Assembly: GCA_012271165.1 (NCBI GenBank)
Contig: JAAXGX010000026.1
Location: 1 to 32,526, forward strand
Source: Vicinamibacteraceae bacterium
GTDB taxonomy: Bacteria > Acidobacteriota > Vicinamibacteria > Vicinamibacterales > UBA8438
Length of the DNA stretch: 32,526 nt
Direction of reading: 5' to 3'
Part shown: piece by piece, positions 1 to 18,540 of the stretch
Numbering within the stretch: the first letter of the stretch is position 1
How the letters are laid out: each line of letters starts with the position of its first letter
Notes under the pieces: generated by a model
What the model saw: the letters and a program-made list of their open reading frames with translations, nothing else
Told to the model about the DNA's origin: nothing
Databases searched by the model: none
Position numbers and translations under genes: made by a program

Positions 1-1094
1 GCCTTCATCAGGCCGATGTTGCCTTCCTGGATCAGGTCTAGGAACTGCAGGCCGCGGTTCGTGTACTTCTTGGCGATCGAGACGACGAGCCGGAGGTTCG
101 CCTCCACCAGTTCCCGCTTCGCCTGCTCGGCCTGGGTCTCGCCGCGCACAATCGTCAGCAGGATGCGATTGATGTCGTCGGGGGTCTCCTGCAGCTTTTC
201 CGTGCGCCGCTTCAGATCGGCCCGCAGCTCCCGCAGCCGCCTCGCCAGCTGCTTGCGATCCTCTCCGGTCAGGCGGCCCCGCCTGACCTTGGCCTTCAGT
301 TGCCGATCGAGCAGCTCGATCTCCCGGTGCACGCGCTGCGCGCCCTCGGCCGCCTCCTTTATGAGGTCGATCAGGTGGCGCTTGACCGGCTCGGTGAACT
401 CGATGCGTCGAATGAGCCGCGAGAGCTCCACGCCGGCCCGCAGCCTCCGCCAGCGATACAGGCGGTACTGCCGCCGGTTGCGCTTCGTGACCTCGGCGAG
501 CTTGGTCTCGGTCTGCTGCAGCTCGCCGTGCTTGGCGTGGACCCTGTCGATCTGTCGCAGCAGCTGCTGCCCGCGGTCGGCCACGCGGGCATCGGTCAGC
601 TCGTCGTCCTGGAAGATCACCAGCTCGCGGATGGTCCGTTCGCCGCGCCGCAGCTGCTCGCCGAGCCTGATGACGACGCGCGCCGTCGTGGCGGTGCGCG
701 AGATGGTCTTGATGACGGAGAGCTTGCCCCGCTCGATCCGCTTGGCGATGGCCACCTCACCCTCGCGAGTCAGGAGCGGTACGGTCCCCATCTCGCGCAG
801 ATACATGCGGACCGGATCGTTCGTCTTGTCGATCGGGCTCGGCGCGAGGTCGAGCTCGACCTCCTCGCTGCCTTCGGCCCGGCGGTCGAGCAGCTTCTCT
901 TCGCGGTACTTCTGCTCGGAGTCGACCACCTCGATGCCGGCGTTGCCCAGCGCGGCGAACAAGTCGTCGAGCTCCTCCGACGACGTCAGCTCGGCGGGGA
1001 GCATGTCGTTGACCTCGTCGTAGAGAAGGTAGCCTTTTTCCTTGCCAAGGATGATGAGTTGACGAATCTCGTCGTACTTCTCTTCGATTGACAA
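1..1094 (-). CDS. rpoD: RNA polymerase primary sigma factor (sigma-70), N-terminal part, cut by window edge
   Basis: Primary sigma factor that directs RNA polymerase to housekeeping promoters. About 364 codons are present. The N-terminus reads [20 protein letters not shown], typical of region 1.1. Region 1.2 follows ([20 protein letters not shown]), then a long charged, non-conserved region. The visible part stops in regions 2.1-2.2 with [16 protein letters not shown] and [14 protein letters not shown], the core-binding signature. Regions 2.3 to 4 lie outside the window. The start is TTG at 1092-1094, chosen because a perfect AGGAGG sits 7 bases upstream and the protein begins exactly where RpoD region 1.1 should. 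It lies 20 bases downstream of dnaG on the same strand, the dnaG-rpoD arrangement of the macromolecular synthesis operon. Confidence 0.95.
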
Positions 1095-1101
1095 GAGTCT
1101 G

Positions 1102-1107
1102 CCTCCT
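1102..1107 (-). promoter_or_regulatory. Strong Shine-Dalgarno for rpoD
   Basis: AGGAGG on the minus strand, 7 bases before the TTG start of rpoD. It is a full anti-16S match and is the evidence that decides this non-ATG start. Confidence 0.8.
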
Positions 1108-1114
1108 GAGCGTT

Positions 1115-2884
1115 TCACCCTCCGAGCGCCTCCGGGCGCTGCAGCAGATCCTGCTTGCGTTGCAGCAGTGCGAGCATCTCGTCTTCCGCTCCCGGCGTGC
1201 CGGCCCGCTGGCAGCGGTCGATGGCTTCCTGCAGCGCGCCCAGCTCGCGCCTGAAACGTCGCCGGCGCAGGGTGCCCACGCAGTCGGCGACGTCGGCCGG
1301 CGCACGCGGCGCGCGCGCGATGCGCTCCACGAGCGCCGCCTCGCCGGCGCCCACGCGTTCGAGCAGCGCCTGCGGGACGGCGTCTGCCGGCCACTCCGCG
1401 AGGGTCTTCGCCACGCGGAGGATCGGCTCGGTCGCCAGGCCCTCGAAGTCGGCCGGCTCGGTGTCCGCCAGTGCTCGCAGCGCCGCGCTCGTGTCACGCA
1501 TCGTGGCCCAGATGAGGCCTCTCTCGGCGTGCGTCACGGCCGGCTCGATCGACTCGCTCACCGCCCCGTCGAGGGTCGTCCGCCGCTTGACGGCGAGGCG
1601 CCGCAGGTCGTCGCGGACGACGTCCTCCATGATGCCGGCCCGGTGGGCCACGCGATCGGCGAACTCGTCCCGCGCCGCCGCCTCCGGCATGCGGGCAGCC
1701 ACAGCCAACATATCGGACAGGAACGCCTTGCGCTGTGCACTGCGCGACAGATCGCGCGTGCCGGCCGCCTTGTCCAGCACGTAGTCCACGTAGCGCCGCG
1801 ACGTGCGCAGCCGCTCGACGTAGTACGCGCCCCCGCGCTCCCGCACGCAGGTGTCCGGGTCCTGGTCCGGCGGCAGCTCGGCCACGTTGACGTCCAGCCC
1901 CTCGCCCAGCAGCAGCTCGCCCGTCCGGGCGGATGCGTTCTGGCCGGCCGCGTCGGGGTCGAAGCTCACGATGACCTTCGACGCGAAGCGGCGCAGCAGG
2001 CGCGCCTGCTGCGCGGTGACCGCCGTGCCGCAGGTGGCCACGGCCGGCTGCACGCCCGCCTGCACCACCTGGGCGAAGTCGAAGTACCCCTCAACCATCA
2101 CGGCGTAGCCCAAACGCCGGATCGCGGACTTGGTGAGATGTAAACCATACAACGTCCGGCTCTTCGTATACAGCGGGGTCTCCGGCGAGTTGACGTACTT
2201 CGGCTGCTGGCCGGACTCGAGCGCGCGCCCCCCGAATGCCACCACCGAGCCGCTGTCGCGGCAGATGGGAATCATCAGCCGGTTCCGGAACCGGTCCAGG
2301 ACCTGACCCCCGTCGCGCTCCACGACCAGACCGCCGGCCAGCAGCAGGTCCAGCGGCTGACCCGCGCCGAGGAGGTGCCGCTTCAGGCTGTCGCGCCCCG
2401 CGGGCGCATAGCCGAGTCCGAGCCGCTCGATCGTCTCCGGGCGGATGCCGCGCGCCTCGAGATGCGCGCCCGCCCGCGCGCCCGCCGCCGTCGCCAGTTG
2501 CGCGCTGAAGAAATCGGCGGCCAGACTGTGGACCTTCAGCAGCGCCTCGCGTCTGGCGTCGGCCGTCGCGTCCCGGGCCGGATCGTCGGTTTCCGGCACC
2601 TGGAGACCGAAGCGCCGGGCAAGCAGCCTGACCGCGTCCGGGAAGGCCAGCTTCTCCTGCAGCTCGACGAACTTCACCACGTCGCCGCCGACGCCGCAGC
2701 CGAAGCAGTGGAAGAAGCCCTTGTCGGGGTTCACGTTGAACGAGGGCGTCTTCTCGCTGTGGAACGGGCACAGACCCTTGTAGGTGCTGCCGGCCTTCCT
2801 GAGCGGAACCGAGTCCTGCACCACCTGCACGATGTCGGCGTGAGCCTTGAGGTCCTCCACGAAATGCGGCGGAAAGCGTCCCAC
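1115..2884 (-). CDS. dnaG: DNA primase DnaG
   Basis: Makes RNA primers for chromosome replication and works with the DnaB helicase. The 589-residue length is normal for the family. The N-terminal CHC2 zinc finger is visible as C39-P-F-H42 and C60-F-G-C63, followed by GGDVVKFVE. The catalytic core contains VVAFGGRAL (about 214-222) and SPETPLY (about 233-239). The TOPRIM metal residues are E265 in VEGYFD and D309/D311 in FDPD. The last 130 residues or so are Ala/Arg-rich and helical, as expected for the DnaB-binding domain. The start is GTG, 2 bases after the mutS2 stop, which suggests translational coupling; rpoD follows 20 bases downstream. Confidence 0.96.
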
Positions 2885-9480: not shown

Positions 9481-10458
9481 TCAATCGTCGAAGAGCGCCT
9501 GCAGGATCGTGACGGACAGTGACGCCTGCTCGTCCGCGCGCACGAACTGGCCGCCGCCGGCCGCGGCGACGCGTCGCATGAACGCGGGGGTGTCGGGGTA
9601 GGCAGGGCCGAGCTCGCTGGTATCCACCAGCACGGCGGACACGGTATGCCGCGCGCCGCGCCGTCCCGCGAACCGCCGCGCGTCTGCTATCGCCTGTTCG
9701 CGCCGGTCGGCGTGCGCGGGGTTGTCCGAGATCATCACGATGGACCGCTGCGCCGCGCCGGCCCGCCAGCTCGCGTCGACCGCCGTGCGGAGCGCCTCGG
9801 CGTAGTCCTCGTCGGCCGTGGTGTTGCAGGCGTCCGACCCTGGCTGCATCGAGCGGGCGAACGCCACCAGTTGTCGCACCGACCGCCGATCGATGGGCCG
9901 GAGCGGCGCAACGCGCAACGCTGTGCCCGGATCGCAGCGGTCCTTGAAGTCGATCAATCCGACGGCCGCGTCCTCGGTCAGCTTCACCAGCAGCTCCGCC
10001 AGGCCGATTTCCTCCCGGAGGCTCGCGACCTCGTAGGTCATGCTGGAGGTCGTGTCGAGGGCGATGACCAGATCGATCGGCGGCAGCTTCGGCAACCTCG
10101 ACTCCGCCTCGGCGAGGGCTTGCTCCAGCGCCCGCTCGCGCGCCCGCGCGGCGGCGCGTTCGGCCTCGGCATCCGCCAGCCGGTCGCGGAACGCCTCGCG
10201 CTCAGCCTCGGCTGCAGCCAGGCGGGTCTCGAGCCGGGCGCGTTCCGCCTCGACTTCCTCCAGTCGACTCTGCGACGCGTCGTCTGCAGGGGGCGGCAGG
10301 CCGGCGGGTGGTTCCCGCGCGGGGGCAGGTGCGTCGCCCGTGTTGGGGAAATAGGGGAGCAGGACGAACGAGACGATCATGAATGCGCCGAGCGCCGACG
10401 CGAACAGATCGATCGCCGACACGTTGAAGATGTTGATCTCCCGGCGGGCGGGTTTCAC
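9481..10458 (-). CDS. Membrane-anchored von Willebrand factor A domain protein with ExbD/MotB-like anchor
   Basis: The 325-residue protein starts with a short cytoplasmic tail and one membrane helix, INIFNVSAIDLFASALGAFM continuing to about residue 37. This resembles the N-terminal anchor of ExbD/MotB-type stator proteins and includes an Asp (D17) at the membrane entry. A Pro-rich linker (40-60) and an Ala/Glu/Arg coiled coil (62-123) follow, then a vWA domain (127-325). The MIDAS motif reads D135-T-T-S-S139, a Thr-containing variant of DxSxS, with ISDNPAHAD (243-251) supplying the later Asp. The start is GTG overlapping the stop of the FHA gene by four bases (GTGA), so translation is coupled. 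The same frame is open far upstream, but that extension runs through the FHA gene out of frame and is not real. Its expected partner is the TolQ/ExbB-like channel upstream in the cluster. Confidence 0.82.
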   Translation of the reverse strand: MKPARREINIFNVSAIDLFASALGAFMIVSFVLLPYFPNTGDAPAPAREPPAGLPPPADDASQSRLEEVEAERARLETRLAAAEAEREAFRDRLADAEAERAAARARERALEQALAEAESRLPKLPPIDLVIALDTTSSMTYEVASLREEIGLAELLVKLTEDAAVGLIDFKDRCDPGTALRVAPLRPIDRRSVRQLVAFARSMQPGSDACNTTADEDYAEALRTAVDASWRAGAAQRSIVMISDNPAHADRREQAIADARRFAGRRGARHTVSAVLVDTSELGPAYPDTPAFMRRVAAAGGGQFVRADEQASLSVTILQALFDD

Positions 10459-12042
10459 CGTGTGCTCCGCTTGATCGACACCGTCAGGCGAACCGCCGCG
10501 CCGACGCCGATCTCGTCCCCGTGCGACAGCCCGGCCGGTCTGCCAGCAGGGATCGCGGTACCGTTCAGGAGGGTACCGTTCGTCGAGTCCAGATCCTCGA
10601 TTGAGAGATTGTCTCCGTCTGCCGCCATCCGGAAGTGTCGCCGCGACGCTTCCGGATGGTCGAGCACGACGCCCGCCCGCTCCGGATTGCGCCCTACCAC
10701 GACACCTTCCGGCGATCCCAGTTGCGCGGCGTCGATCTTGAGCACCACGCTCCGGCCATCCTCGTCCGTGCCTTCCAGAAGGCACGAGAACGAGGCTGGT
10801 GTGACGGCTGCGGCGAGCTTGTCCTGCGTTTCGCGGCGTGCCGCTTCCGACTCGACCAATTGACTCCGCCGCCGCCAGAAGAGGAGTCCCACCGCGAGCA
10901 ACACGACGGCACCGGCGACGAGCGCGCCCACGAACCGGAGCCGCTCCTGCTCGAGTTGCGCCACACGTTGCTCGGCCTCCCTTGCCTGCGCGCGGGAGCC
11001 ATTCGCACGTCGCTCCAGATCGTCCAGCTCGGCTTCCTGCTCCTCGGCGGCGGCCTGCAAGAGCTCGGCTTCTTCGCGCGCGGCATCCCGTTCCGCCTCG
11101 GTCGCAACCGCATCCGCCTGCAGAGCTGCGGCACGGCGTTGTGCCTCGGCGGCCCGCGCACGAGCCTCTTCCGTTGCGCGGCGGGCCGTGTTCGCCGCCT
11201 CCCGCGCTTGCCGCGCCTCGTCTTCGAGCTCTCTGGCCCGCGCGGCCTGTTGCGCAACCGTGGCGTTGGCGTCGGGGCACAGCGTGTCGGCCGTCCGCAC
11301 CTCGACGCCCAGCTCGGCAACGGCCCGGCGAGCCTCGGCGCCGGCGACGCTGAACGTCGACTCGCCGGGTCCAACCCGATCGTTCAGGTCGCGCAGCGAC
11401 AGATCGGGGTCGGGCCGGATCAGGCCGACGACCTCGCCACAGTCGTTCAGCATCGGCATGCCGTATTCCCGGGCGGTGACCGTCGCGTTGTGCCGGTAGA
11501 GCAGCAACTCCCGCTCGCCCTGCAGGTCGGGCTCCAGGCGGCGCAGCTCGGCAATCAGGCCGGCCGCCGGCACGACACCGAGCGAGCCGTCCACGGCGAA
11601 CCGGGGGACATGGACGACGTCGCCCTCTTCGGGGTCCGCGTTCGGGTTTGTCCGCAGCGAAGCGGGCGCCGCCCGCCGGCATCTGATCCGCGGCGAGGAC
11701 GGCGATGCCCGACCGCTCGTCAACGCTGCGCAACTCCGCGGTGAACTCCTGCGCGCCGCCTGGGGTGACAACGACGACGGCTTCCGCGCCGCGCAGCATC
11801 TGGGCGCTCGTGACGACCAAGCCGTTTCCGACCGCCAAACCCGAGATGTCGCCGAGCGCCATGCGGGTCCGGTCGAACGCGCGGACCACCACGATGTGGT
11901 TCTCGATGGCCGACAGGTCGGGCTGGGCTTGCACGACAGGCACCGGCATGCCGAGGGTGAGGAGTACCGCCGCTGCCAAGCAGGCGGAAGCTCTCGTCGC
12001 GTGGTCGGCCAAGCTGTGCATCGTCTGGTGTCTGCTCCTCAT
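10455..12042 (-). CDS. Exported inactive trypsin-like domain + coiled coil + TM + FHA protein, with a one-base frameshift
   Basis: Two frames are needed for one protein. From ATG 12042 the first frame gives a signal peptide (about 15-40, ending VVQAQ) and the first half of a trypsin-like beta-barrel. Near 11631-11634, a C4 run on the coding strand, the reading must move by +1; the second frame then gives the rest of the barrel, an Ala/Glu coiled coil, a membrane helix (FVGALVAGAVVLLAVGLLFW) and an FHA domain with VVVGRNPE, SRRHF and STNGTLLNG. Dropping one C restores about 528 residues with DKPERGPEEGDVVHVPRF at the joint. The protease is dead: VTSAQML replaces the catalytic-His motif, SGIAVL the DLAVL Asp motif, and YGMPMLND the GNSGGPL Ser motif. 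The protease half would be periplasmic and the FHA domain cytoplasmic. The frameshift may be real, phase-variable or an assembly error. Confidence 0.75.
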
Positions 12043-12069: not shown

Positions 12070-14025
12070 TCACCCTTCGAGCGCTCGAAGTCTGGACTGC
12101 GCCAGCTTGTGGCCTTGCTGGGCCGCCTTGCTGTACCAGGCCACTGCCTTCCGGTTGTCCGGGTCGACGCCTTCGCCGTCGTCATGTATCAGGCCGAGGT
12201 GCAACAGCGCATACATCCGACCGAGGAGGAACTGCGCGTCGGCGACGCCTTGTTCGGCGGCCTTTCGGTACCAGGCTGCTGCCTCCAGGTAGTCCTGGTC
12301 GACACCATCGCCGTTTTGATACATCCTGCCGAGGTCGAACTGCGCGTCGGCGAGTCCCTGTTCGGCGGCTCTTCGGAACCATGCGGCCGCCTTCCCGGCG
12401 TCCCGGTCGAGGGCGTCGCCTTTGTCGTACTCCAGGCCGAGATGGAACTGCGCTTTTGCGTGACCCTGTTCGGCGGCCTTTCGGATCCATGCGACCGCTT
12501 TCCGGGCGTCCGGGTCGACGCCGTCGCCAAGGTCGTACCTCAGGCCGAGTTGGAACTGCGCTTCTGCGTGACCTTGTTCGGCGGCCTTTCGGGTCCATTC
12601 GACCGCCTTCCCGTCGTCCGGGTCGACGCCGTCGCCGCTTTCGTACATCGAGCCCAAGCGAAACTGCGCTTCTGCATGACCTTGTTCGGCGGCCTTTCGG
12701 GTCCATTCGACCGCCTTCCCGTCGTCCGAGTCGACGCCTTCGCCGTTGTTGTACATCGAGCCCAAGCGGAATTGCGCTGCTGCCTGACCCTGTTCAGCGG
12801 CCCTCGTGATCCACGTTGCTGCCTGTCGGAGATCCTGGTCGACGCCCCTGCCAAGGAGATACAGCACGCCGAGGTGGAACTGCGCCGAGGGGCTCCCGTG
12901 TTCCGCAGCTTTCCGCAGGCGCGTCAGCGAAGGAATGTCGGCCCGCGAGGCAGCGGCGGCGAGGTCGTGAGTATCCGCGAACAGCGCGCGCCACGCGGCG
13001 ATCGCCTGGGGCCGGTCTTCGGGCCGCAATGCCAGCCCACCGTCGATGGCGGCCAGCCATGCCGTCGGCGTTGCCGCAGCCCGTAACAACAGCTTGGTGA
13101 GCTCTTCCTTGGATAGCCCTCGCAACTTCTCACGGGTCAGTCCGGCCGACGCGTACAGACGCCGCTCCAGCGGCTCGCACTGGTCGTCCAGCATTCGTTC
13201 CGGTGCACTCGGCGGTGCCTCACCGGTCAACACGCGGTACGACACGGCCGCGAGCGCGTAGATGTCCGTCCACGGGCCCTGCCTTGCTTGGCTCGAATGC
13301 TGCTGGATGGGCGCGTATTCCGGTGTCAGCACGCGCGTGTGCGTTCGCTCGCGGGCGTCAACGCGGGCCGCGCCGAAGTCGATCAGTACCGGTTCGCTGT
13401 CCGCCGCGCGAACCACGATGTTGCCCGGCTTGATGTCCCTGTGCAGGTACCGCTGTCCGTGCACGTGCTCGAGGCCGTCCAGCAGCCGGTCCAGCCAGGG
13501 GCGCCACTCGGCGGCTGACAGCGGCCCGCGCGATTCCAGGATTGCCGCCAGCGAGTCGCCTTCAACGTACTCCATGACGATGTACGCGGTGCCGTGCGCC
13601 TCGACGAAGCGATGGACCCGCACCACATTCGAGTGCCGGAACCGGTGGACTGTCCGCGCCTCCTCGATGAACCGGGCGAGGCCCCACGCGTAGGTCTTGC
13701 GGTTCTCGGGTGACGACGCGACGACACGCAGGTTGTCCCCGCGCGCCGCGAATCCGACCAGGAAGTACTCCTTCAAGACCTCGATGAACCGGTTGATGCC
13801 CCGCGTGTAGGACTCACGGTTCTCGGGCGACGATGCGACGCGCCGGTCGCCCTTGCGCACCGCGAGCCCGGCCGGGAAGTACTCCTTCAGGACGACCGGG
13901 CCGTCCAGGTGATGATCGAACGCCAGGTAGGTGATGCCGAAACCGCCGGCGCCGAGCACGCGAACGACCTCGTACTCGTCGATGCGATGGCCTGCCGGGA
14001 GCGCATGGGCGTGCGTCTCGGACAC
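12070..14025 (-). CDS. Serine/threonine protein kinase with duplicated N-lobe segment and C-terminal SEL1 repeats
   Basis: A Hanks-type kinase of 651 residues, probably the writer of the phospho-signal read by the two FHA proteins. Motifs: glycine loop GAGGFG (25-30), catalytic lysine in VLKEYF, C-helix RFIEEA (118-123), VMEYVEG hinge (150-156), HRDIKPGN (195-202), DFG (216-218) and PEYAPIQQ (235-242). The lysine segment is present twice (K47 and K85) because residues 45-82 and 83-121 are tandem copies; only one can sit in a normal N-lobe. After the kinase domain (to about 350) come SEL1-like repeats of 36 residues (378-638) for protein interaction. No membrane segment is visible. The start is GTG, 10 bases after the PP2C stop. 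A remnant of a second kinase of this family lies at 18343-18540. Confidence 0.9.
   Translation of the reverse strand: MSETHAHALPAGHRIDEYEVVRVLGAGGFGITYLAFDHHLDGPVVLKEYFPAGLAVRKGDRRVASSPENRESYTRGINRFIEVLKEYFLVGFAARGDNLRVVASSPENRKTYAWGLARFIEEARTVHRFRHSNVVRVHRFVEAHGTAYIVMEYVEGDSLAAILESRGPLSAAEWRPWLDRLLDGLEHVHGQRYLHRDIKPGNIVVRAADSEPVLIDFGAARVDARERTHTRVLTPEYAPIQQHSSQARQGPWTDIYALAAVSYRVLTGEAPPSAPERMLDDQCEPLERRLYASAGLTREKLRGLSKEELTKLLLRAAATPTAWLAAIDGGLALRPEDRPQAIAAWRALFADTHDLAAAASRADIPSLTRLRKAAEHGSPSAQFHLGVLYLLGRGVDQDLRQAATWITRAAEQGQAAAQFRLGSMYNNGEGVDSDDGKAVEWTRKAAEQGHAEAQFRLGSMYESGDGVDPDDGKAVEWTRKAAEQGHAEAQFQLGLRYDLGDGVDPDARKAVAWIRKAAEQGHAKAQFHLGLEYDKGDALDRDAGKAAAWFRRAAEQGLADAQFDLGRMYQNGDGVDQDYLEAAAWYRKAAEQGVADAQFLLGRMYALLHLGLIHDDGEGVDPDNRKAVAWYSKAAQQGHKLAQSRLRALEG
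12112..12894 (-). repeat. Tandem 108-bp SEL1 repeat array inside the kinase gene
   Basis: Six complete units of 36 codons (residues 378-592) with consensus AEQGHAEAQFRLGxMY..GDGVDPD..KAVEW.RKA, then a shortened seventh unit (593-606) that runs straight into an eighth (LLHLGLIHDDGEGVD, 607-638). Neighbouring units around 12560-12780 are almost identical at DNA level, which points to recent unit gain and loss by recombination or slippage. Confidence 0.85.
13663..13893 (-). repeat. Tandem duplication within the kinase N-lobe
   Basis: Codons 45-82 and 83-121 encode the same segment twice. Both copies begin VLKEYF, pass through ASSPENR, and end RFIE. Copy 1 has 38 codons and copy 2 has 39. The copies have diverged (PAGLAVRKGDRRV against LVGFAARGDNLRVV), so the event is not very recent and both stayed in frame. 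Confidence 0.85.
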
Positions 14026-14035
14026 GACTCGGAGT

Positions 14036-14965
14036 CTACATCCGCGCCCGGTGCATCGGATCCCCCGGCGCCTCCAGCAGTGCGACGGTCGCGTTGTCCT
14101 GCGTCGCCGAACCGCGCGCGTTCACGGCGGCCAGCAGCGCGTCCTTGACTGCCTCCAGGCCGTTGCTCCGGCGTGCCGCAATGATCGCCGCCGCCTCCTC
14201 GTCGTCCAGCGTGTCGAGGCCGTCGCTCGCCAGCAGCACCAGATCGCCGGGCTGCAGTCGCTCCGGCGTCGCCGACGTGTCGATCTTGGCGATGGTGCGT
14301 CCGACCAGCGCCGAGCGGAGCTCGTGCGCCTTCATTCCGGCTGCCGCCTCGGGATCCATTTCGCGCATGGCAGCGATGACCGGGGCCATCGAGTGGTCCG
14401 CGTTGAGCCGCTTGAGCCGCCCGGCCCGATAGAGGCAGAGCCGCGAGTCTCCGACGCTGATCCACTCCAGGCCGTCGGTGGTGAGCGCGGCCGCCACCAG
14501 GGTGGTGCCCATGCCGTCGAGCGCCCGATCGCTGTCGACCGCATGCCCGATCGCCTCGTTGGCGCGGTCGAGCGCGGCGCGGAGCCGATGCGCCACCCGA
14601 CCTTCCGGTGCGTACGCTTCCACGAACGCGCGCACGGCGACGCGGCTGGCGACTGAGCCGCCGGCATGCCCTCCCATCCCGTCCGCGACGACCGCTACGG
14701 GATGCAGGCCGCCGGGATCGAGCAGAGGGCTGTCGATGAAGCCGATCTCGTCCTCCTGCATCTCCCGCGCCCCGACGATCTGCCCGCCAGCGCGGCGCAC
14801 GGGCGCGGCGGGGCGTCTGCTCGCGTGGGAAGACGGCCCGCGCCGCCACCAGGCGACCAGCATCACGACCGGGAGTTGCAGCGTCACCGCCAGCAGCAGC
14901 GCGCCGAACACGGCGGCGGTCGCCAGGAGAACGGCTTCCGGCGGGGAGAGATCAGTCGGCGGCAT
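14036..14965 (-). CDS. Membrane-anchored PP2C-type serine/threonine phosphatase
   Basis: Probably removes the phosphates placed by the neighbouring kinase. The 309-residue protein has an N-terminal membrane helix (about 11-40, ending in WWRR) with a cytoplasmic PP2C domain from about 60. The metal-site motifs are all there: REMQEDE (67-73), ADGMGGH (94-100), GTT (153-155), VGDSR (171-175), ASDGLD (246-251) and QDNATV (289-294). The gene overlaps the end of the FHA gene by 14 bases and ends 10 bases before the kinase start, so the three are surely co-translated. The membrane anchor is unusual compared with soluble PppA/PstP-type enzymes of similar size and places the phosphatase next to the membrane proteins of the cluster. 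Confidence 0.9.
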   Translation of the reverse strand: MPPTDLSPPEAVLLATAAVFGALLLAVTLQLPVVMLVAWWRRGPSSHASRRPAAPVRRAGGQIVGAREMQEDEIGFIDSPLLDPGGLHPVAVVADGMGGHAGGSVASRVAVRAFVEAYAPEGRVAHRLRAALDRANEAIGHAVDSDRALDGMGTTLVAAALTTDGLEWISVGDSRLCLYRAGRLKRLNADHSMAPVIAAMREMDPEAAAGMKAHELRSALVGRTIAKIDTSATPERLQPGDLVLLASDGLDTLDDEEAAAIIAARRSNGLEAVKDALLAAVNARGSATQDNATVALLEAPGDPMHRARM

Positions 14966-15602
14966 CGGACCAGTGGAAGCGGTCGCCGCAGAACGCCACG
15001 AAGCGCAGGGTGGTGCGCCCGACGGTGATCGTGGCGCCGTCCTCGAGCGGCAGGCGCGTGTCGATGGCGACGCCGTTCAGATGCGCCAGGTTGGTGCTCT
15101 GCTCGCCGGGCGCGACCGAGAAGGTCCGGCGCAGGGGGTCGTAGGTGACCCAGAGATGGCCCCGACGGGATATCCGCGTGTCGCCGAACGGCAGGGCGAT
15201 GCGGTTGTCCGACATCCGCCCCAGGTCGTTGCGGCCGGCCCCGATCCGGACGTCCCGCCCCTTGCCGGGACCTTCGACTACGACGAGCCAGCCCGAGACC
15301 GGATCGATCTCGTCCGCCTCCGGTGCGTCGCTCGCCGGTATCGCCCCAACGAGGCGCGTCCGGTCGTGGCTGCCGTCCGACGCCCTCGCGTCGCGGGCGC
15401 CAGGGCTCGGCCTGCGGACGACCGTCTTCTCGTCGTAGCGTCCCGGCGCGGGCCGGCCGCCTCCGGTCCGTGGCGCGCCGCGCGTGCGCGTCGCGGTGGT
15501 CTCGTCGCCGCCGGATGCGTCGTCGTCGGTGCGGGAACCGGGCAACGGCACGTTGGTTTTCTCCTCGATGATCCGGCCGTCCGGGGTGCGATACACGGGC
15601 AT
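14952..15602 (-). CDS. FHA domain protein with possible phosphothreonine tail
   Basis: A soluble 216-residue adaptor. The C-terminal FHA domain (about 104-205) keeps the phosphothreonine-binding residues: GAGRNDLGR (121-129), ISRRGHLWV (144-152) and HLNGV (174-178). The N-terminal 100 residues are disordered and hydrophilic with two Thr sites in basic/acidic settings, YDEKTVVRRP (56-65) and HDRTRLVGA (79-87). These look like kinase target sites of the GarA/OdhI kind, so the protein might bind its own phosphorylated tail; this is inference. AAAGGT lies 5 bases before the ATG. It starts 10 bases after the channel-protein stop and overlaps the PP2C gene. Confidence 0.87.
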   Translation of the reverse strand: MPVYRTPDGRIIEEKTNVPLPGSRTDDDASGGDETTATRTRGAPRTGGGRPAPGRYDEKTVVRRPSPGARDARASDGSHDRTRLVGAIPASDAPEADEIDPVSGWLVVVEGPGKGRDVRIGAGRNDLGRMSDNRIALPFGDTRISRRGHLWVTYDPLRRTFSVAPGEQSTNLAHLNGVAIDTRLPLEDGATITVGRTTLRFVAFCGDRFHWSDAAD

Positions 15603-18114: not shown

Positions 18115-18342
18115 TATTTCAACCGCTTGTACGGCTCCGGGACGAGCGATCGGGCGGCCGGTTGACGTTTTTCATGCCGCGGCCGGCGACGGGCGCCCAG
18201 AGCTGGACCGGGGCGGTAAACGGGCCAAGTCTCGCCGACGTCCGAACCCGAGACGAATCGCCTCGACGGAGGCTGTCAAGCGGAAAACGCAGCAGGACGA
18301 AAAAACAACGAAGCTCAACGGGGTGCGCTTCCAGCTTCTCCC
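18115..18342. other. Non-coding or decayed stretch upstream of the HNH gene
   Basis: I see no supported gene here. The first part (18101-18170) is AT-rich for this genome and should hold the HNH promoter. The remainder continues the open frame of the kinase remnant but has lost all kinase similarity, consistent with decayed or joined DNA. Confidence 0.5.
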
Positions 18343-18540
18343 GCCCGCCGCGTCTGCACGAATCACGACGTTCGCCGGCTTGATGTCGCGGTGCAGGTAG
18401 TCACGGTGGTGGACGTGCTCGATGCCGGCGAGCAGGGCGTCCAGCCAGGGCCGCCACTGCGCCGGCGTCAGGCTCCCGTGCCGCTCCAGAAACGCGGCCA
18501 GCGACTCTCCCTCCACGTACTCCTCCAGGAACGTGCGCAC
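18343..18540 (-). pseudogene. Serine/threonine kinase remnant
   Basis: About 66 codons of a kinase middle section: EEYVEGESLAAFLERHG, LTPAQWRPWLDALLAGIEHV and YLHRDIKPANVVIRADAAG, covering hinge, helix E and catalytic loop. This matches residues of the intact kinase at 12070-14025 (MEYVEGDSLAAIL, AAEWRPWLDRLLDGLEHVHG, LHRDIKPGNIVV). The glycine loop, catalytic Lys, DFG and the whole C-lobe are missing, and after ADAAG the sequence is unrelated. A further in-frame fragment (LLWRDSFVRTF) extends upstream to a stop near 18575. It is dead DNA from a second copy of the same kinase family. Confidence 0.8.

Follow-up and report, generated by a model that had tools for sequence, protein, structure and literature searches.

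An in-frame tandem duplication of the catalytic-lysine segment in a PpkA-like bacterial kinase

Introduction

A kinase gene in the stretch of Vicinamibacteraceae DNA analysed here (32,526 nucleotides, hereafter the window) carries twice in succession the part of its N-lobe that holds the catalytic lysine. Which of the two lysines would do the work, where the additional residues would go in the fold, how and when the second copy arose and whether it is of any use to the protein are the questions considered below. All of the conclusions rest on one draft assembly, 72% complete and in 217 contigs.

Results and discussion

The kinase gene and its family

The gene (12070..14025, minus strand), delimited by its open reading frame and translation, starts at a GTG and encodes a PpkA-like Hanks-type Ser/Thr kinase of 651 amino acids, with a kinase domain at about aa 14-350 followed by Sel1 repeats at about aa 367-640. 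Pfam recognizes the latter strongly (Sel1, 5.4e-77, 7 repeats), while its Pkinase match (1.6e-32) covers aa 114-276 only; that it begins as late as residue 114 is consistent with an N-lobe match broken by the extra segment. The residues G25, G27, G28, G30, K47, E122, H195-R196-D197 and D216-F217-G218 are all there, so that, judged by sequence, the protein has the G-loop, beta3 lysine, C-helix glutamate, HRD and DFG of a Hanks-type Ser/Thr kinase.

The nearest solved relative is the N-terminal kinase domain of PpkA (PDB 5hnv, 5x1q-5x1t), a type VI secretion regulator. PpkA 5hnv is alone among PDB sequences in matching the kinase part below 1e-30 (E 9e-52), and it is also the top fold match, with a TM-score of 0.84 to the target; the best match both in sequence and in fold thus places the window kinase in the PpkA-like (KEYFP) group. 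The group motif, [VI]A[IL]KE[YF].P, is found in copy 1 save for a change of Ala to Val at Lys-2. PpkA itself matches a single-copy homologue at E 2.6e-61 and shares with the window kinase a KEY[MF]P beta3 motif and a long beta3-alphaC linker, but has the segment in one copy. What the comparison shows is a resemblance between kinases and not one between secretion pathways; no type VI gene was recognized near the window kinase.

Two further features of the gene concern its internal structure. The Sel1 array (12212..12802, minus strand), found by both Tandem Repeats Finder and Pfam, has a 108-bp period with 5.5 copies and 82% matches, and the kinase C-lobe contains a second private insertion of about 26 amino acids (aa 292-318; 13072..13152, minus strand), predicted by AlphaFold to be helical (298-303 and 306-317); the alignment is gapped at this point in the 27 homologues that reach it, none of which has the insertion. 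From this insertion and the similarity of the Sel1 units, the gene appears to be prone to internal rearrangement.

The duplicated segment

The initial annotation had read residues 45-82 and 83-121 as diverged tandem copies at 13663-13893, and these limits proved exact. Copy 1 (aa 45-82; 13780..13893, minus strand; VLKEYFPAGLAVRKGDRRV-ASSPENRESYTRGINRFIE), defined by the repeat searches and by the position of beta3 in both structure predictions, has K47 (13885-13887) in its native beta2-beta3 context together with the family-invariant P51. Copy 2 (aa 83-121; 13663..13779, minus strand; VLKEYFLVGFAARGDNLRVVASSPENRKTYAWGLARFIE) follows directly and contains K85 (13771-13773) and the YAWGL that leads into the C-helix, whose glutamate, E122 (13660-13662), comes immediately after. 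Tandem Repeats Finder reports 13662-13893 with a period of 117, 2.0 copies, 79% matches and a score of 290, and an ungapped repeat search recovers the same pair in two registers, at 77-84% identity, with a spacing of 117 and then 114, so that one whole codon is missing from copy 1. The protein alignment between the copies scores 105, as against 18 +/- 4 (maximum 38) in 2000 shuffles, which on the sequences compared excludes chance as the cause of their resemblance.

As had been claimed, the beta3 and C-helix-leading segment is duplicated with the frame kept, and there is neither a stop nor a frameshift in it. The further description, that the catalytic-lysine segment is doubled, can be refined: the lysine is doubled but the Lys-Glu pair is not, copy 1 ending one residue before the C-helix Glu; in the KEYFP family the duplicated segment is mostly long beta3-alphaC linker. 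Alignments to other kinases bypass an inner, redundant stretch at about aa 64-92 (13750..13836, minus strand), made up of the tail of copy 1 and the head of copy 2: the phmmer match to PpkA breaks into aa 4-63 and 93-302, and BLAST matches to single-copy relatives split in the same way.

Relatives and origin

Relatives were drawn from 60 related genomes, from a scan of a collection with one genome per species, and from searches with a profile through the order and the phylum. The 37 distinct homologous segments obtained, which come from Acidobacteriota, Marinobacter and Firmicutes, are all single-copy, with a Lys-to-Glu spacing of 35-40 residues; in the window kinase this spacing is 75 from K47 and 37 from K85. 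An adjacent double match to the 52-column profile of the segment was found only in the window's own genome, among 162 genomes of the order and 396 of the phylum, and the duplication was not found among the 28 genomes of the family that were searched. Plasmid-borne relatives, ten among the matches listed, are likewise all single-copy, with 151-159 query residues matched in 113-121 codons; two of them adjoin tssH. The single-copy KEYFP kinases of Acidobacteriota (G018, G012, G010, G019 and L038) are 52-69% identical to the window kinase over the aligned region and several have a PP2C gene within a few kb, as it does, but they have the 35-40 spacing and neither the duplication nor the 26-aa C-lobe insertion. 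The comparison with the closest homologues proposed at the outset thus has a plain answer, in that none of those examined has the insertion. A literature search found no description of such a duplication in a bacterial kinase.

A relative of the window kinase at locus L121 (G018:C12:37500-40500, about 791-1825, minus strand) has an internal deletion that keeps the frame open; in it, the beta3-alphaC linker is followed directly by a stretch from late in the C-lobe (FSWDIYALAAVSYRVLTG).

Both copies in the window kinase have Val at Lys-2 where relatives have Ala, both carry SSPENR, and both have Tyr at a position that is Phe in almost all near relatives. These shared derived residues indicate that the duplication arose inside the window gene, in its own lineage, and the origin, read from the sequence, is intragenic. 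A chimera of paralogues was considered and is ruled out by the derived residues common to both copies and by the lack of a donor in the assembly. A related proposal, that the assembler fused two strain or paralogue variants, might be entertained for a draft genome of this completeness and contig number, but we consider it very improbable: the copies differ in about 20% of their bases and yet have in common derived residues unseen in relatives, the assembly has no other kinase bearing the duplicated segment, the flanks of the joint are unlike and hence offer nothing long on which an assembler could jump, and the locus lies mid-contig with the frame exact. Misassembly in general is unlikely given the divergence of the copies and the missing donor.

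The duplication appears to postdate the separation from all of the relatives found. The dS between the copies is 0.24, a value from only 6 synonymous differences, or about 30% of the 0.77-0.92 that separates the C-lobe of the window kinase from those of five relatives; the event would then be younger than the split from every one of them, which would explain why none shares it.

The catalytic lysine and the fold

The choice between the two lysines draws on the conserved residues, the alignments to PpkA and its relatives, and structure prediction, and all three agree on K47 as the probable catalytic lysine and E122 as its partner. In the alignments, PpkA and the relatives match copy 1 over its left part and copy 2 over its right part. 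AlphaFold with homologues places beta3 at aa 42-49 and the C-helix at 106-127 (mean pLDDT 82, pTM 0.81), with aa 62-95 below a pLDDT of 50; the input alignment of this run had already placed the homologues on K47. In a second run the homologue fragments were confined to the C-lobe and the part preceding beta3, with none over either copy, and its alignment contained a six-residue misplacement. There beta3 is predicted at 42-48, the C-helix again at 106-127 and K85 within a helix, at low confidence (mean pLDDT 62, and below 50 for aa 41-135). The check on the partner of E122 suggested in the initial annotation pointed to K47 in both runs, with K47 in beta3 and E122 in the C-helix, the second run being of low confidence.

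It might instead be supposed that the catalytic lysine has moved, with K85 forming beta3 and pairing with E122 and copy 1 bulging out between beta2 and beta3. The K85-E122 spacing of 37 falls within the family range, and copy 2 keeps K-E-Y-F and A-x-R; we nevertheless regard this as unlikely, since copy 2 lacks the KEYFP proline, invariant in 37 of 37 relatives, as well as the native G-P-V lead-in, and both predictions put K47 in beta3. Very unlikely, in our judgement, is a switch in which two beta3 strands compete for the one place in the N-lobe, the protein passing between a K85-E122 arrangement of normal spacing and a K47-E122 arrangement with a long loop.

The explanation that we favour, and hold to be probably correct, is a single in-frame duplication that left a working N-lobe built on K47 and E122, with the inner material looped out and drifting nearly neutrally. 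One tandem event would have copied 39 codons, beginning where beta3 begins and stopping just short of the C-helix glutamate. The left end of the product would supply beta1-beta2-beta3, in which K47 would be the lysine that binds ATP, and the right end the C-helix, with E122 as the partner of K47; the helix-leading half of copy 1 and the beta3 half of copy 2, including K85, would lengthen the linker and bulge from the fold, in a family whose beta3-alphaC linker is long in any case. Substitutions would then build up in this inner material almost as if neutral. Of the three fates first proposed for the extra residues, looping out is the one that the evidence favours, and neither a displaced lysine nor autoinhibition is.

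Constraint on the copies and possible function

Over this stretch 11 pairs of single-copy homologues have a dN/dS of 0.06-0.40, as compared with 0.91 between the two copies, which points to very little constraint on the extra material; most simply, the redundant half-copies can drift almost freely. The initial annotation had held the divergence to be tolerated or selected, and tolerance agrees with these values, selection does not. The proline of KEYFP is retained in copy 1 and gone from copy 2, and the W of WGL, present in 17 of 18 near relatives, is retained in copy 2 and gone from copy 1; the C-helix glutamate comes after copy 2 alone. This pattern, outer ends keeping the family-conserved residues and inner ends losing them, is suggestive, with two columns carrying the contrast, so that statistically it is not strong.

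Relaxed constraint on the segment could also mean that the whole gene is decaying, towards a pseudogene or a pseudokinase, with the duplication as one lesion among several, and the Ala to Val change at Lys-2 in both copies, the 26-aa insertion in the C-lobe and a truncated kinase remnant 4 kb away could be taken in the same sense. The 651-aa frame is open, however, with G-loop, K, E, HRD and DFG intact, and the dN/dS of the C-lobe to relatives is 0.16-0.24, a value that mostly reflects the time before the duplication; we think decay quite unlikely, and the kinase probably still works.

In-frame duplications are also familiar from human kinases, FLT3-ITD and EGFR exon 20 being examples. Another is BRAF V504_R506dup, in which three codons of the beta3-alphaC loop are duplicated in tandem and in frame; it was described in a tumour whose MAPK signalling was active (PMC5855983) and, like the duplication in the window kinase, lies in the N-lobe beside the C-helix. 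The human duplications are somatic and activating, and either short or located elsewhere, while that of the window kinase belongs to an inherited bacterial gene and spans 39 codons including a beta3 strand. By analogy with BRAF, where a duplication can accompany activation, regulation by the insert is possible, and nothing in the data calls for it. In its fuller form this proposal has the spare beta3/helix piece docking on the N-lobe or shifting the C-helix and so setting activity, and the insert does sit at the hinge that positions the C-helix; an autoinhibitory effect is likewise possible but unsupported. We rate a regulatory pseudo-segment as distinctly improbable, as neither the dN/dS near 0.9 nor the loss of conserved residues from the inner halves suggests a conserved function, none of the relatives examined has the insert, its predicted pLDDT is below 50, and the BRAF case involves 3 residues in a short loop.

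If the duplication is real, the window kinase would be a natural enzyme that survived duplication of its catalytic-lysine segment, and a family with long beta3-alphaC linkers would be able to take up 38-39 extra residues there, making this protein a simple test of the tolerance of that loop. Its broader significance is slight: a single gene in a single assembly, whose extra copy drifts, is a curiosity rather than a new mechanism.

Gene neighbourhood

A PP2C-type phosphatase gene (14036..14965, minus strand; Pfam PP2C_2, 2.1e-13) precedes the kinase gene on the same strand at a distance of 10 bases, and a MotA/ExbB gene lies upstream of both. In genomes G018, G012 and G002, too, PP2C homologues and related kinases are a few kb apart at most. 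An ORF at 14952-15602 looks FHA-like by eye and has no Pfam match. Downstream, on the same strand, an FHA-domain protein is encoded. The minus-strand frames 9481-12042 and 10455-11771 overlap and seem to belong to a single protein with an FHA domain at its end, apparently frameshifted somewhere near 11650, and a gene for a VWA-domain protein then follows. The break may be a sequencing error or a real lesion.

The truncated remnant of a related kinase (18172-18540, minus strand; match 18355-18528), which reads VEGESL...HRDIKPANVVIR and is 67% identical, has neither the N-lobe nor the rest of the C-lobe and sits between a DUF222-HNH gene and citrate synthase. At loci L117 and L118 several KEYFP kinase genes and PP2C genes are grouped within 10-16 kb, which suggests that the kinase/PP2C module has been duplicated repeatedly in this family.
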